A stretch of 64,000 nucleotides of DNA from Bradyrhizobium septentrionale. GTDB taxonomy: Bacteria; Pseudomonadota; Alphaproteobacteria; Rhizobiales; Xanthobacteraceae. The DNA lies in assembly GCF_011516645.4 (NCBI RefSeq), contig NZ_CP088285.1, positions 3,614,501 to 3,678,500 on the forward strand. The letters run 5' to 3'. Positions 36,520 through 41,717 of the stretch are shown one piece after another; position 1 is the stretch's first letter; every line of letters starts with the position of its first letter. The notes under the pieces were generated by a model, which was not told where the DNA came from, searched no databases, and was given only the letters and a program-made list of their open reading frames with translations. A program made the translations under genes and the position numbers.

Positions 36520-37705
36520 GCAGGGGAATCGCATATGGATTTTTCTTGTGTTGAGGCTGAATAGGGATTCTTGAGGGAGGCAGTTTTTCGAAGGAGAAAC
36601 GGCCATCTGCCTGGAAACCTGTTTTGGATCGGTTCCCGACCCCCGAGCCGGAAACGCGACGCATCGGTTGGGCGACCTGATCGTGATGATGGTCGCCGCG
36701 AGCCTGTGCGGGGCCGCGACAGCAACCGAATTTGCGTTGTTCGCGGAGACCCGTAGGGCTGTGCTGTCTCGCCTGATCGATTACGACGTGGCCCCCAGCC
36801 ACGATACTTTCTCGCGGCTTTTGCGGCTGCTGGATCCGCGGGCGTTCGAGCAGGCTTTTGCGTCGTTTGCCGCGGGTTTTGCCCGGGCGCTCGGCGAATC
36901 CAGCGGCACGACTGTGGCCACGCCAGACGAGGTGGTCGCGCTCGACGGCAAGGCCTTGCGGCGCGCCTATGAACAAGGCCAGCAGGCCTATCCGCCGCTG
37001 ACGGTCTCGGCCTTCGCCACGCAAACCCGGCTTTGCCTTGCGGCCGCGTCGCCGACGGCGGCCGAGAACGAGATTGAGGCCGCCCTGAAGGTGATCGCGC
37101 TGATTGATCTGACTGACAAGATCGTCACGGCCGACGCGCTGCATTGCCATCGCCGGATGGCCGAGGCGGTCGTCGAACAGAATGCGGACTATGTGCTGGC
37201 GCTGAAAGGCAACCGTGGTCACTGGCACAAGGAAGCCGAGAGCCTGCTGGCACGAGCGCCCTCGCCACCGGTTGTCGAGCAGACGGAACGCGGTCATGGC
37301 CGCGACGAATGGCGGAAAGCTGAGGTGGTGCCGGTCGAGACCGCGCTGATGCCCGGCCATGCCGCCATCATCCGGATCACTTCCCGGCGTGATCGGTCCG
37401 AGCCGCTGACGCGCTTGTTCATGACCTCGCGCGTGTTCTCGCCGCAGCAGGCCCTCGACATCACGCGAGCCCATTGGCAGGTCGAGAACGGCCTGCACTG
37501 GATGCTTGATGTTCATCTCGCCGAGGATATGAACCGAGCTCGCAAGGACCACGCACCTGCCAACATCGCCATCCTCAAGCGAATCGCAAAAAATATCCTG
37601 CAGATGACCGACCCGCCGAAGGTCCCTATCAGCCACCGCATCAAAAAATGCGCATGGAACGACGACTACCTCCTCAAAGCCCTGGCCCATATGCGATAGC
37701 CCTGC
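36520..37705 (+). mobile_element. ISAs1-family insertion sequence, copy 1
   Basis: 1186 bp. Inverted ends GCAGGGGAATCGCATATGG and (right end, complement) GCAGGGCTATCGCATATGG. Flanked by an 8-bp target duplication CCGCAAGG at 36512-36519 and 37706-37713. Carries one DDE transposase frame. Confidence 0.88.
36605..37699 (+). CDS. ISAs1-family transposase, start codon uncertain
   Basis: The frame encodes CLETCFGSVPDPRAGNATHR-LGDLIVMMVAASLCGAATATEF, then VVALDGKALRRAYEQG (first catalytic Asp), IVTADALHCHRRMAEAV (second) and RAHWQVENGLHWMLDVHLAED (Glu), ending LLKALAHMR, all typical of ISAs1. The only canonical start is TTG at 36668, which would remove the first conserved block. AAGGAG (36591-36596) sits ideally before ATC at 36605. 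As at the DUF892 gene, ATC appears where ATG is expected; the start may be mutated. Confidence 0.85.
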   Translation: MCLETCFGSVPDPRAGNATHRLGDLIVMMVAASLCGAATATEFALFAETRRAVLSRLIDYDVAPSHDTFSRLLRLLDPRAFEQAFASFAAGFARALGESSGTTVATPDEVVALDGKALRRAYEQGQQAYPPLTVSAFATQTRLCLAAASPTAAENEIEAALKVIALIDLTDKIVTADALHCHRRMAEAVVEQNADYVLALKGNRGHWHKEAESLLARAPSPPVVEQTERGHGRDEWRKAEVVPVETALMPGHAAIIRITSRRDRSEPLTRLFMTSRVFSPQQALDITRAHWQVENGLHWMLDVHLAEDMNRARKDHAPANIAILKRIAKNILQMTDPPKVPISHRIKKCAWNDDYLLKALAHMR

Positions 37706-37714
37706 CCGCAAGGG

Positions 37715-38893
37715 GTAGGGCTATCGCATATGGGCGAGGACGGAGAGAAGGAAGTCGTTATTCCATCTGGCCTGGAGCATTTTGTGGCTGGTGCGCGTGG
37801 GACCTGGCGTGGCTTGTAGAGCGTTAAGTGCCAGCTTTCGGATGGCGGCAAGATTTTCGGCGGCATGGCCCTTGCGGCTACGGCAGGCGTCTTCGTCGAA
37901 CAGAACGTCGAGAACCCAATGCAAGTTGTTCTCGATACCCCAGTGGGCGCGGACGGCCTCGAGCAGCTTCTTGGCCGACAACCGGCGTGAGGCCAGAAAG
38001 TATCGGGCCGTGTGTTTGGCTGTCTTGCCGGCCTTGGCGCGCCAACTATCGATGCGACCGACGACAGCGATAGCAGGGAAGCTGTATTGCTTTGCCAAGT
38101 CTGGGGCCGGCACGACGATGGCCTGCCGGCGCTCGATGCGGCCGTGGGCCGATGTCCTTCGCTGGCTCGCCCGCGCTGGCTTCCGGGCCGTATCGAGCAG
38201 CGCCTTGACGGCTTTGAAGAGCCGGCCGCGATTACTCTTGATGGCCAATACATAGTGGCCCTTCCGATCGCGGATGGCCTGCGCCGTGTCGGGCCGGCAA
38301 TGCAAGGCGTCGGCGGTGACAAGAGCACCATCCAGATCGAGCAGGGCGAGGACTTCGAGAGCGCCGGCAATCTCGTTGCGATTGGGAGCCTTTCTCTGCG
38401 CAACGCCATGCGCGTGCCTGCCGCCCAGACGTTGACCATATGTAGCGGCGTAGCCCGCCGGCCACGCGTGAAGGCTCCGCGCAACGCCTTGCCGTCGATG
38501 CTGACCACGCCCTTGACGCCGAAGCTCTTGCTGAACTTACGCAAAACCGCTTCCAGACCCTTCGGGTCCAGCACGCGGAAGACGTTGCTGAACGTGTCGT
38601 GGCTAGGAATACCGTGTCCAAGCTCCAGGAACTTCCGCAACAGCTGCTCTCGGCCTTTGCCGAAGAACTCGAACTCGGTGCAGGTCTTGGCGCCGGCCAG
38701 CGTCGCCGCCAAGGCAATGACGAGGATCTCCAACAAATCGTGTCGCGTGTTGCCGGCGCGTGGATCCTTGAGCGGTCGAAACAGGCGCCTGAGTTTGCGC
38801 ATTTGGGTCTCCCTCGACAATCGAGAGACCCCCAAAGAATCCAGTTCCAACCGCTTGGCAACACCCCTCCTGAGCCATATGCGATTCCCCTAC
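37715..38893 (-). mobile_element. ISAs1-family insertion sequence, copy 2
   Basis: 1179 bp, opposite orientation to copy 1. Ends GTAGGGCTATCGCATATGGG and (complement) GTAGGGGAATCGCATATGG. 8-bp target duplication CGCAAGGG at 37707-37714 and 38894-38901, overlapping the right duplication of copy 1, so it inserted next to copy 1 in the same target loop. Transposase is frameshifted. Confidence 0.88.
37721..38850 (-). pseudogene. ISAs1-family transposase, frameshifted
   Basis: N-terminal part (LRRLFRPLKDPRAGNTRHDLL, GHGIPSHDTFSNVFRVLDP, VVSIDGKALRGAF) is in one frame to about 38400; the C-terminal part (HCRPDTAQAIRDRKGHYVLA, VRAHWGIENNLHWVLDVLFD) is in another. One G is missing near 38399-38402 relative to a frame encoding MALAQRKAPNRNE. 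Everything else is intact, including the DDE residues, so one base would restore it. The preferred start is ATG 38802 (MRKLRRLF) or the TTG/ATG further upstream. Confidence 0.85.
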
Positions 38894-38938: not shown

Positions 38939-39799
38939 TTAAGCTGGTTTTAGCTCCATCTCGATCGGGGCGAGGTACCCGATGGCGGAATGGAGTCGAG
39001 TTCGATTGTAGAAGCCCTCAATGAAGGCGAAGATATCGCGCTGGGCCTCGGCCCGGGTCTCATATTGGCGATGATGAACGAGCTCGGTCTTCAGGGTATG
39101 GAAGAAGCTCTCCATCGGGGCATTGTCGTAGCAGTCGGCTTTGCGGCTCATTGATGCCGTGATGCCGGCGGCCGACAGGATCGCGCGATAGTCCTGTGAG
39201 GCGTACTGCACGCCGCGATCGGAGTGATGGATCAATCCGCCTTCCGGATGCTGCTGCTGGATTGCCATCTTCAAGGCGGACGAGGCGAGTTCGACCTGCA
39301 TGTGATCCCGCATCGCCCAACCGACGATCTTGCGGCTGAAGAGGTCCATGATGGCCGCCAGGTAGAGCCAGCCCTCTGCAGTCGGAATGTAGGTAATATC
39401 GGCGAGCCAGATCCGGTTTGGGGCCGCGGCTGCAAAATGACGTTCGATGAGGTTCGGCGCGATCGGCAGGCCGTGGCGGCTGTCGGTGGTCCGAACGCGA
39501 CGCGGTGATGCCATGATGGCGCGGATGCCGTGCCGATGCATCAAGCGTTCGATCCGGCCACGGCTGGCGCCACGTCCCTGTACCCGCAGAGCGGCATGGA
39601 CCCGCGGACTGCCATAGCGTCCGCCACTGTCTTGATGGACCTGTCGGATCGCAGCCAGCAGCGCGGCATTGGTGGTTGCGCGTGCGTTTACCGGGCGCTC
39701 ACGCCAAGCGTAATAGCCGGCCGCCGAGACCCCGAGCACGGCGCACATCAGCCGCACCGGATAGGCGTCGCGATGGTCCTCAATGAAGCGGAAGCTCAT
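38939..39799 (-). CDS. IS3-family transposase OrfB
   Basis: 286 residues. HTH-like VRLMCAVLGVSAAGYYAW, then the integrase core with D134 (IWLADITYIP), D194 (IHHSDRGVQYAS) and E230 (APMESFFHTLK), spacing 59 and 35 as in the DD(35)E family, and ending FIEGFYNRTRLHSAIGYLAP. The frame is intact, but OrfB is normally made as an OrfAB fusion by frameshifting; orfA is cut by the IS110-group insertion, so the element cannot move by itself. Confidence 0.93.
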   Translation of the reverse strand: MSFRFIEDHRDAYPVRLMCAVLGVSAAGYYAWRERPVNARATTNAALLAAIRQVHQDSGGRYGSPRVHAALRVQGRGASRGRIERLMHRHGIRAIMASPRRVRTTDSRHGLPIAPNLIERHFAAAAPNRIWLADITYIPTAEGWLYLAAIMDLFSRKIVGWAMRDHMQVELASSALKMAIQQQHPEGGLIHHSDRGVQYASQDYRAILSAAGITASMSRKADCYDNAPMESFFHTLKTELVHHRQYETRAEAQRDIFAFIEGFYNRTRLHSAIGYLAPIEMELKPA

Positions 39800-39832
39800 G
39801 TCCGGGTTCCGGCAAAGATCGCGATCGACTTC

Positions 39833-41200
39833 CTAAGAAACAGCCTGATTGGCGTTGCACGGAATGGCCTGCAAGACAAAGCCGAGCGATTTGGCCCGGC
39901 GCTGAAGGTTAGCGAGGACGCGGCTGCGATATTGTCGCTCATATTGGTCGGCACCTGGATCCCTGTAGCTCATGCCATGCCGGAGTGTGTTGTAGAATAA
40001 AACTGCAATCTTGCGGGCGGTCGCCGTCACCGCCTTCGACTTGCCCGCGCGTGAGGACAGCCGGCGATAGAATGCTCCGAGCGCCGTATCGCTCCGCCCC
40101 ACGGTTGTGGCTGCCAATCGCAGTAGTGCGGCTGCCCGGCTGGAGGATCTCCGCGTGCGTGAAGATAGTACCTTGCCACCGGAGATTTTGTTGCCGGGTG
40201 CGAGGCAGAGCCAAGAGGTGAAGTGCTTGGCGGTTGGCCACGCCCTCAGATCCTTGCCGCACTCGCCGACGAGCTTCAATGCGAGTGACGGACCCAGCCC
40301 ATGGATCTCAGTCAGATCAACGCCGAGCACACCGTACAGCGCGGTCCTGACATCGAAGGTGGGTGTGTTGACCTGCTTGGTCTTTACGCGTGGCTGGGAT
40401 AGCTTTCCGACCGGCTTTGCTTCTCTGTTGCTAAGCGCGGCGATCAAGACTTCGAGCTTGCGGTCGCAGTCCAGCATCTTCGCCTGGTAGATGTCGTAGA
40501 GTTCCAGCGATTGGGTCAGAGCGAAGACATGTTCCTCCCGGTCGTTGCCGATCAGCGCCGCGCGGATCGTCTCCGTTGAAGAATGGCAGCGCACGTCTCG
40601 ATAGGTTGCCAGAACGTCGGGATTGCGCTCGCCTGCAACAATGGCTCGGATAATCCGCATACCAGTCGCTCCGGTGATATCCGAGACGACATGATGGAGC
40701 TGCAGGTTCATCTCCATCAGAGCCTTCTGCATGTGCTGGATATGGGCGGCAGCATATTCAACCAGCCGCTCCCGCTGGCGCAGATAAGCGCGCAGGGTCG
40801 CAATCTCGGCATCGGGACGGAAGCTGCCGCGTAACAGCCCATAGGAATGAAGCTGGCGTAACCACGCAGCATCGCTGACATCGGTCTTGCGCCCGGGCAC
40901 ATTCTTGGCATACCGCGCGTTGACCAGAATGACCTCGAACCCGCGCTGCTCCAGAATCTCGTAGACCGGGATCCAATAGACGCCAGTGGATTCCATCGCG
41001 ACGCTGGTCACACCGCATGTCTTGAACCAGTCCGCCAGACTATGCAGGTCCTGTGTGAACGTGCTGAACGTGCGCACTGGGACATCGGTGCAGGCCGGGT
41101 TCACGGCGGCCATGTGCATCTTTGATCCGATGTCGATGGCAGCCGCCCCGACGTTGACTGGCTTCAATTCCGGGCGATCTGCAGTTGTCGTCTTGAGCAT
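39833..41200 (-). CDS. IS110 family transposase (DEDD recombinase)
   Basis: 455 residues from ATG 41200, preceded by GGAGGA. Catalytic tetrad D23 (AAIDIGSK), E70 (VAMESTGVYW), D107 and D110 (GRKTDVSDAAW). C-terminal Tnp_20 domain with IHGLGPSLALKLVGECG and FTSWLCLAPGNKISGGKVLSS. Differs strongly from the IS1111-group transposase at 21712-22749. Frame complete; activity is possible. Confidence 0.93.
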   Translation of the reverse strand: MLKTTTADRPELKPVNVGAAAIDIGSKMHMAAVNPACTDVPVRTFSTFTQDLHSLADWFKTCGVTSVAMESTGVYWIPVYEILEQRGFEVILVNARYAKNVPGRKTDVSDAAWLRQLHSYGLLRGSFRPDAEIATLRAYLRQRERLVEYAAAHIQHMQKALMEMNLQLHHVVSDITGATGMRIIRAIVAGERNPDVLATYRDVRCHSSTETIRAALIGNDREEHVFALTQSLELYDIYQAKMLDCDRKLEVLIAALSNREAKPVGKLSQPRVKTKQVNTPTFDVRTALYGVLGVDLTEIHGLGPSLALKLVGECGKDLRAWPTAKHFTSWLCLAPGNKISGGKVLSSRTRRSSSRAAALLRLAATTVGRSDTALGAFYRRLSSRAGKSKAVTATARKIAVLFYNTLRHGMSYRDPGADQYERQYRSRVLANLQRRAKSLGFVLQAIPCNANQAVS

Positions 41201-41436
41201 TGCGGGTCCTCCGTCCAATCATGGGCAGGAGGGTCTGGGTTATGCCAATTTGTCATCTTCCTAATCGGGATCGCCGCCGGAGCGCCGTCACCACTCTCAA
41301 GTCCGCATGCACCCATGGACCACGTTTTTTAACGGGGACAGTGCCTCCAATAAGCTGACGGCCGCTACCCTCCCGGCCTCAGACGATAGCACAAGGCTGT
41401 TTCTACCCCGCGCAGGCACGCCACGGCGCTGGACAG
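41201..41436 (-). ncRNA. Candidate bridge RNA region of the IS110-group element
   Basis: 236-bp non-coding left end upstream of the transposase. It contains TTTTTTAA (41325-41332), identical to the target flank at 41437-41444, and CTTCCTAA (41257-41264), identical to the sequence across the element's other junction (39829-39836). Read 5' to 3' on the minus strand the target-like word comes first and the donor-like word second, the order of target- and donor-binding loops in known bridge RNAs. Confidence 0.45.
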
Positions 41437-41717
41437 TTTTTTAAAATGTCCCGCTCCATGCGCAGCCGCTCATTCTCCTCGCGCAGCCGGGCGATCTCGG
41501 CAGCCTGGTCCGCCGGCATCGGCGTCGCTTGCGTCGTGGGGCGCCGCGCCGCCGCTGCCGGCTCCTGCCGGAGCTTCTCCACCCAGCGCCGCAGCACCGA
41601 ATCACGCAGACCGAGTTCCTTGCCGACCGACGTGATCGACCGGCCACTCGATACCACGAGTTCAGCGGCCTGCCGCTTGTACTCCTCGGTAAACGACCGA
41701 CGTTGACGCTCTTGCAT
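41403..41717 (-). pseudogene. IS3-family OrfA, 5' part, truncated by IS110-group insertion
   Basis: MQERQRRSFTEEYKRQAAEL with SITSVGKELGLRDSVLRRWV (helix-turn-helix) and the leucine-zipper-like ADQAAEIARLREENERLRME. True OrfA coding ends at ERDILK near 41437; the following residues (NCPAPWRACAG) are read from the inserted element. The missing C-terminus lies at 39800-39831. Confidence 0.9.

Follow-up and report, generated by a model that had tools for sequence, protein, structure and literature searches.

What takes an insertion sequence to the same few bases of another insertion sequence, copy after copy? The question is raised by a locus of Bradyrhizobium septentrionale at which an IS110-group element divides the orfA gene of an IS3 element. 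We analysed the locus within a 64,000-nucleotide stretch of contig NZ_CP088285.1 (the window; coordinates count from its first letter) and compared the element with its relatives. The comparison makes it highly probable that this is an IS110-kind insertion sequence with a transposase of ~455 aa, whose left end would encode a bridge RNA directing the recombinase to the A_AAA_AAG heptamer of IS3 orfA.

The element and its insertion site

The insertion is described by the following features, with the strand in brackets:

41443..41717 (-): 5' part of the interrupted IS3 orfA, up to the A6 run (HTH_Tnp_1)
38939..39799 (-): IS3 orfB (rve integrase core)
39832..41436 (-): IS110-group element, 1605 bp without the core copies; 12 identical full copies and one split copy
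39833..41218 (-): transposase/recombinase ORF, 461 aa from TTG (455 aa from the ATG at 41200); Pfam PF01548 and PF02371, NCBIfam NF033542
41437..41438 (-): core AA at the left junction (TT on +), from empty sites
39830..39831 (-): core AA at the right junction (TT on +), from empty sites
41394..41404 (-): subterminal inverted repeat, left copy, AGAAACAGCCT
39836..39846 (+): subterminal inverted repeat, right copy

A first-pass annotation of this DNA had described an IS110-group element splitting IS3 orfA, with a target that could be reconstructed; the Pfam and NCBIfam domains and the perfectly matching empty sites bear this out. When the flanks are joined minus one AA, the result equals uninterrupted IS3 copies at 398 of 398 bases (100%; H161, H176 and H177), and these 100%-matching empty copies sit on B. 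septentrionale plasmids. Because AA is common to the target and the element end, it was taken as the core; AG takes this place in some relatives (e.g. L151 and L185).

The transposase carries the motifs AIDIGSK, MESTGVY, KTDVSDAAWL and KISGG, and combines a DEDD N-terminal domain with a PF02371 C-terminal domain containing a P----SG motif, as is characteristic of the IS110 family in its broad sense; the leading G of the IS110 motif G--P----SG is absent. Two further family traits are present, namely a longer non-coding region upstream of the transposase (236 nt to its left, the stop codon lying at the right end of the element) and a single target sequence entered in a single orientation. In the 10.4-Mb genome the element occurs as 12 full copies, all identical, plus a split one, and all 13 left junctions read TAAAAAA/CTG and all 13 right junctions TTAGG/AA (slash, junction), so that the other copies, whose target flanks the first-pass annotation had proposed to compare, carry the same target and donor sequences. 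Among the closest elements and the identical IS3 copies, the named records are Bradyrhizobium. No relatives of the element were found in the viral contigs scanned.

Several side observations concern the surroundings of the copies. The split copy (G000:C1:301249-305565; L013, L014 and L196) consists of two parts that overlap by 8 bases (441-448), resembling a target duplication, and its 2.7-kb insert encodes a 533-aa protein that reads, from its sequence, like an IS66-type transposase. Just past the end of IS3 orfB the window contains a broken transposase-like reading frame (37666-38850), which suggests that the insertion site is a cluster of mobile elements. At L079, L127 and L185 another left end directly follows the element, the ends abutting as they would in a circle junction; within this study abutted ends are known from tandem copies in relatives alone (L127 and L185).

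It is an even question whether the 13 copies represent independent insertions or whether IS3 elements with the IS110 element already inside them moved as whole units, in which case the copy count would say little about targeting. One IS3 element (IS3#1) hosts seven full copies and the split copy, and a second (IS3#2) hosts five; the 13 junction pairs thus lie within two different IS3 elements and could trace back to just two insertions. The element is present in all eight of the near-identical IS3#1 copies that were found with their orfB side, the lone uninterrupted IS3#1-like site (at most 2 mismatches) is one diverged copy (87%) with an intact A6, and the lone uninterrupted IS3#2-like site, by the same threshold, has a broken A-run. 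However, filling site by site would give the same picture, and movement as units leaves unexplained why numerous other IS3 types and genomes have the insertion at this site.

That wider occurrence was examined at 110 loci, a count that relies on a loose regular expression and includes the 13 from the window's genome and some duplicates. The flank resembled IS3 orfA in the forward direction, with ERDILK-type codons at the end, at 88 loci, and a different IS3 orfA in reverse at 11; nine were other sequences and two lacked a junction. Pfam found the IS3 HTH domain in seven of eight left flanks, and gave nothing at L057, yet the expression had scored this site as IS3. TAAAAAA-like left flanks also occur at five sites not recognised as IS3 (L021/L102, L025/L106, L045, L080 and L095). 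Two copies on plasmids, of Citrobacter (L147) and Acidovorax (L190), are still in IS3 orfA, their right sides lost to IS66 and IS1071 neighbours. On a Streptomyces plasmid (L193) the left flank resembles, by eye, the closing portion of a different transposase gene, and a mobile element may therefore be the landing site of this relative too.

In both IS3 elements of the window's genome, the site read in the orfA frame is (TT or CT)A_AAA_AAG. Passages of PMC5009743 report that A_AAA_AAG is much more prone to shift in E. coli than other heptamers, and that frameshifting is very common among IS3 elements. Since the site is this heptamer in the orfA frame, the insertion parts orfA from orfB at a probable shift site.

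Candidate guides for target and donor

Three words in the 236-nt left end are candidate guides:

41324..41332 (-): left target guide (LTG) TTAAAAAA and the following C, a candidate handshake base
41257..41264 (-): left donor guide (LDG) TTAGGAA and the following G, a candidate handshake base
41352..41357 (-): right target guide (RTG) CAGCTT, from a column scan and a lineage test; weak at this copy's own site

On the minus (transposase) strand, TTAAAAAAC at 41324-41332 equals the left junction, that is, the target flank 41437-41444 plus the first element base, and TTAGGAAG at 41257-41264 equals the right junction 39829-39836. With AA the core at both junctions, the donor word comprises the left donor, the core and one target base. 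The first-pass annotation had reported both 8-base words, and their coordinates are confirmed, as is the target-like word preceding the donor-like one. It had also cautioned that such matches can arise by chance, which holds for each word singly: when the left end was resampled 20,000 times under a first-order Markov model, 26 resamplings contained TTAAAAAA and 46 contained TTAGGAAG. It does not hold for the pair, as no resampling contained both in order.

Distant relatives hold different words in the same frame, CCCG-[8 nt]-N-NTGG. They include CTGTAGAG in Paraburkholderia, TTATTGAG in Polaromonas, CTTAAGAG in Caballeronia, CTTTGGAG in Cupriavidus, TACAGAAG and ATTAGGAG in Nostoc, TATCTCAG in Kovacikia, and GCCATGAG and GTTGCGAG in two genomes of the window's own genus. 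In one distant relative, Pontibacter L192, a frame of this type was not seen by eye. Across 15 lineages with differing words, the LTG matched its own left-end window at 7-9 of 9 positions. The own-pair sum was 120, with an off-diagonal mean of 6.02 per lineage, and none of 200,000 permutations reached 120; the result was likewise 0/200,000 for the ten lineages without an A-run. Three of the 15 matches are unremarkable alone, being equalled by more than 5% of shuffled windows (955 of 2000 for L148, 403 for L128 and 239 for L188). The target word therefore behaves as an LTG, tracking the left flank across lineages, and it is nearly invariant among the IS3-targeting members. The length of the A-run was seen to vary in a few members: in genome G019, L119 has a run of nine in both left flank and guide, and L143 has an extra AAC-like triplet in the left flank with the guide still at six A; L035 has nine A in the left flank vs six in the guide.

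The donor word matched the right end at 7 or 8 of 8 positions in all 13 lineages compared (0/200,000 permutations), and over these lineages it behaves as a left donor guide. Both words thus change together with target and donor in relatives, as the guide-like reading of the first pass would have it. In 64 of 76 loci the LDG is followed by a base identical to the first base of the right target; by eye this match fails in L148, L151, L153 and L186, and the corresponding target-module base is nearly invariant. A right donor guide (RDG) was not found, with no signal either following the LDG or in the 5' part of the donor module; GACAAATT, which follows the LDG, was considered for this role and dropped for lack of signal. 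The unfiltered RD strings start with C in 74 of 76 loci.

The RTG had been overlooked in the first pass. Each alignment column of the RNA was scanned against the right flank at 76 loci for complementarity beyond column composition, giving one peak (0.798; sd 0.115, next highest 0.397) 5' of the hairpin lying before the LTG. This places the RTG upstream of the LTG, across the hairpin. Guide and right flank fall into classes, GCTT with GGC, CGATT with GTCGA and ACGAT with TCGT; L025, a site not recognised as IS3, pairs CGATT with GTCGAT. In a fixed register, 14 lineages scored 50.5 of 70; foreign pairs averaged 1.84 of 5, and 0/200,000 permutations reached the observed value. In this set the window's lineage (L001) was entered with its second target (3.5) and not the window's own (1.5), L094 was taken over L093 of the same record (4 vs 2 of 5), and L152 and L189 have one guide in common. 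An unfavourable retest with 13 lineages, in which the window was represented by its own target and Defluviicoccus by its worse site, gave 42.5 of 65 (1/200,000). The fit is poor at the window's own site (1.5 of 5) and reaches 2 to 2.5 in L149, L153 and L186; L150, L185, L190 and L131 had no trusted right target. In the Streptomyces relative (34.5% identity), read last and outside these tests, AGGATCT faces AGATCCT.

The sampling frames these results. The regular expression for the RNA caught 111 of 146 loci, the 35 misses including the distant relatives L127-L142, and unique sequences numbered 78 in the consensus fold and 76 in the column scans. The 76-locus statistics are inflated by phylogeny, and in at least four of these loci (L037, L039, L040 and L045) the left end was parsed wrongly, an error confined to LT and RD. 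The 15 LTG, 14 RTG and 13 LDG lineages, and the RTG and junction strings, were chosen by eye after the sequences had been viewed; L129, L130, L135-L142, L154-L184, L191 and L192 stood outside the permutation tests.

An improbable alternative is that the bridge RNA follows the published IS621 order; an invariant ACTT on the downstream side of the LTG would then be the RTG, and the matches seen upstream would be incidental. Being complementary to AAGT, ACTT offers a closer fit to the window's own target than the upstream RTG. It also stands on the 3' side, like the RTG of IS621 in PMC11208160 and PMC11208158. The candidate GCGGACTT/ACTT failed, however, in the 65%-identity clade, where ACTT is unchanged despite a right target of AATCG, and it gives no scan peak, whereas the upstream columns do. 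An invariant ACTT cannot covary, so a possible part in core pairing lies beyond the reach of the scan alone.

Predicted RNA structure

The guides were placed on a consensus fold in which their columns were constrained to be unpaired:

41228..41373 (-): predicted bridge RNA body, closed by stem P1 (41367-41373 with 41228-41234); compensatory changes in 78 sequences
41318..41363 (-): target module, with stem P2 (41359-41363 with 41318-41322) around the RTG, a hairpin and the LTG

The innermost pair of P1 is T-A in 29 sequences, C-G in 25, G-C in 21 and T-G in 3, and the outer pair of P2 is G-C in 45, T-A in 32 and C-G in 1. A second module has a hairpin ahead of the LDG. In the unconstrained consensus fold, each guide segment has 3 to 5 bases paired across its own loop. 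By itself, the window's left end does not fold better than shuffled versions of it (z 0.83), and Rfam, searched at E values up to 5, returned three hits, all unrelated. On the question raised in the first pass, whether the words lie in loops or in stems, compensatory stems surround the guides, but the free fold of the window sequence pairs part of the LTG. Our placement of the guides in loops follows from these stems together with the tracking of targets by guides.

That the words are DNA sites read by protein, or chance, with no guide RNA, is very improbable, since in relatives a wholly different word, in an unchanged frame, is again identical to the local left flank and the stems around it carry compensatory changes, even if the LTG hardly varies in IS3-targeting members and lone 8-base matches can be chance. 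Taken together, the comparison shows a conserved predicted RNA with compensatory stems, in which the LTG and LDG track the left target and left donor, and the putative RTG and LTG lie 5' and 3', respectively, of the target hairpin. In the mechanism we propose, the RNA encoded by the left end would bring the recombinase to A_AAA_AAG, the frameshift heptamer within IS3 orfA, the circular element would recombine at the AA core, and insertion would separate orfA from orfB, so that the OrfAB fusion would stop.

Relation to known systems and implications

PMC11208160 and PMC11208158 describe IS621 as having its LTG 5' and its RTG 3', with CT as the core (its T near-invariant) and with a handshake base following each 3' guide. 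Relative to the IS621 described there, the element presented here is similar in that the RNA lies in the left end, the target module stands ahead of the donor module, the core falls within the guides, and the base after the 3' guide may match partner DNA; the transposases are related (E 1.2e-05). It differs in guide order (RTG-LTG here, LTG-RTG in IS621), in the core on the transposase strand (AA or AG vs CT, the other strand here being TT), and in transposase length (455 aa vs 328 in the solved IS621 chain); no counterpart of the IS621 RDG was found here. The published bridge RNA architecture invoked by the first-pass annotation thus applies to the order of the loops, target before donor, but within the target loop the order of RTG and LTG is the reverse of that in IS621.

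An IS110-type element known to land in IS3, ISEc21, is described in excerpts of PMC11187229. It shares with the present element the upstream non-coding region and insertion inside IS3. Its target, however, consists of the codons around the second D of the IS3 DDE, whereas here it is the frameshift heptamer, and its bottom-strand match precedes the top-strand match, the opposite of the order here. The same excerpts report the RTG-first order for IS1111 members and the other order for ISEc21. As in the IS1111 seekRNA described there, the top-strand match lies 5' of the bottom-strand match in our element, which also has a subterminal inverted repeat (11 bp). In contrast to IS1111, the non-coding RNA region lies upstream and not downstream of the transposase, the transposase has 455 aa and not 330-350, and the repeat lies 32 nt inside the left end, where IS1111 repeats of 11-13 bp are 7 bp and 3 bp from the ends (PMC11187229, same excerpts). 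IS110 itself belongs to a subgroup with transposases of 395-455 aa, of which the excerpted text reports no member tested (PMC11187229); the window protein resembles this subgroup in length. The RTG-LTG order may already be drawn in published figures (e.g. ISPpu10, ISAar29 and ISHne5).

Compared with IS621, the element seems to have its RNA-transposase cassette turned round with respect to the recombining ends, since the core read on the opposite strand is TT (CT in the AG-core relatives) and the guides and the bases following the 3' guides then occupy IS621 slots. We lean slightly towards the view that the long-transposase IS110 subgroup, whose members here come from Proteobacteria, cyanobacteria and a Streptomyces, represents a mirror-image bridge recombinase, with IS621-like guide geometry, handshake bases and a (C/T)T core but an inverted cassette. 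One widespread branch would have fixed its guides on the IS3 frameshift heptamer, a sequence that IS3 could hardly alter and still keep its transposase.

To read or use a bridge recombinase, one must know its guide order and core strand. If the whole subgroup is inverted, prediction based on IS621 would mislabel its guides. A target that doubles as a recoding signal of another mobile element offers a landing site wherever IS3 goes, and the insertion would silence each IS3 that is entered.
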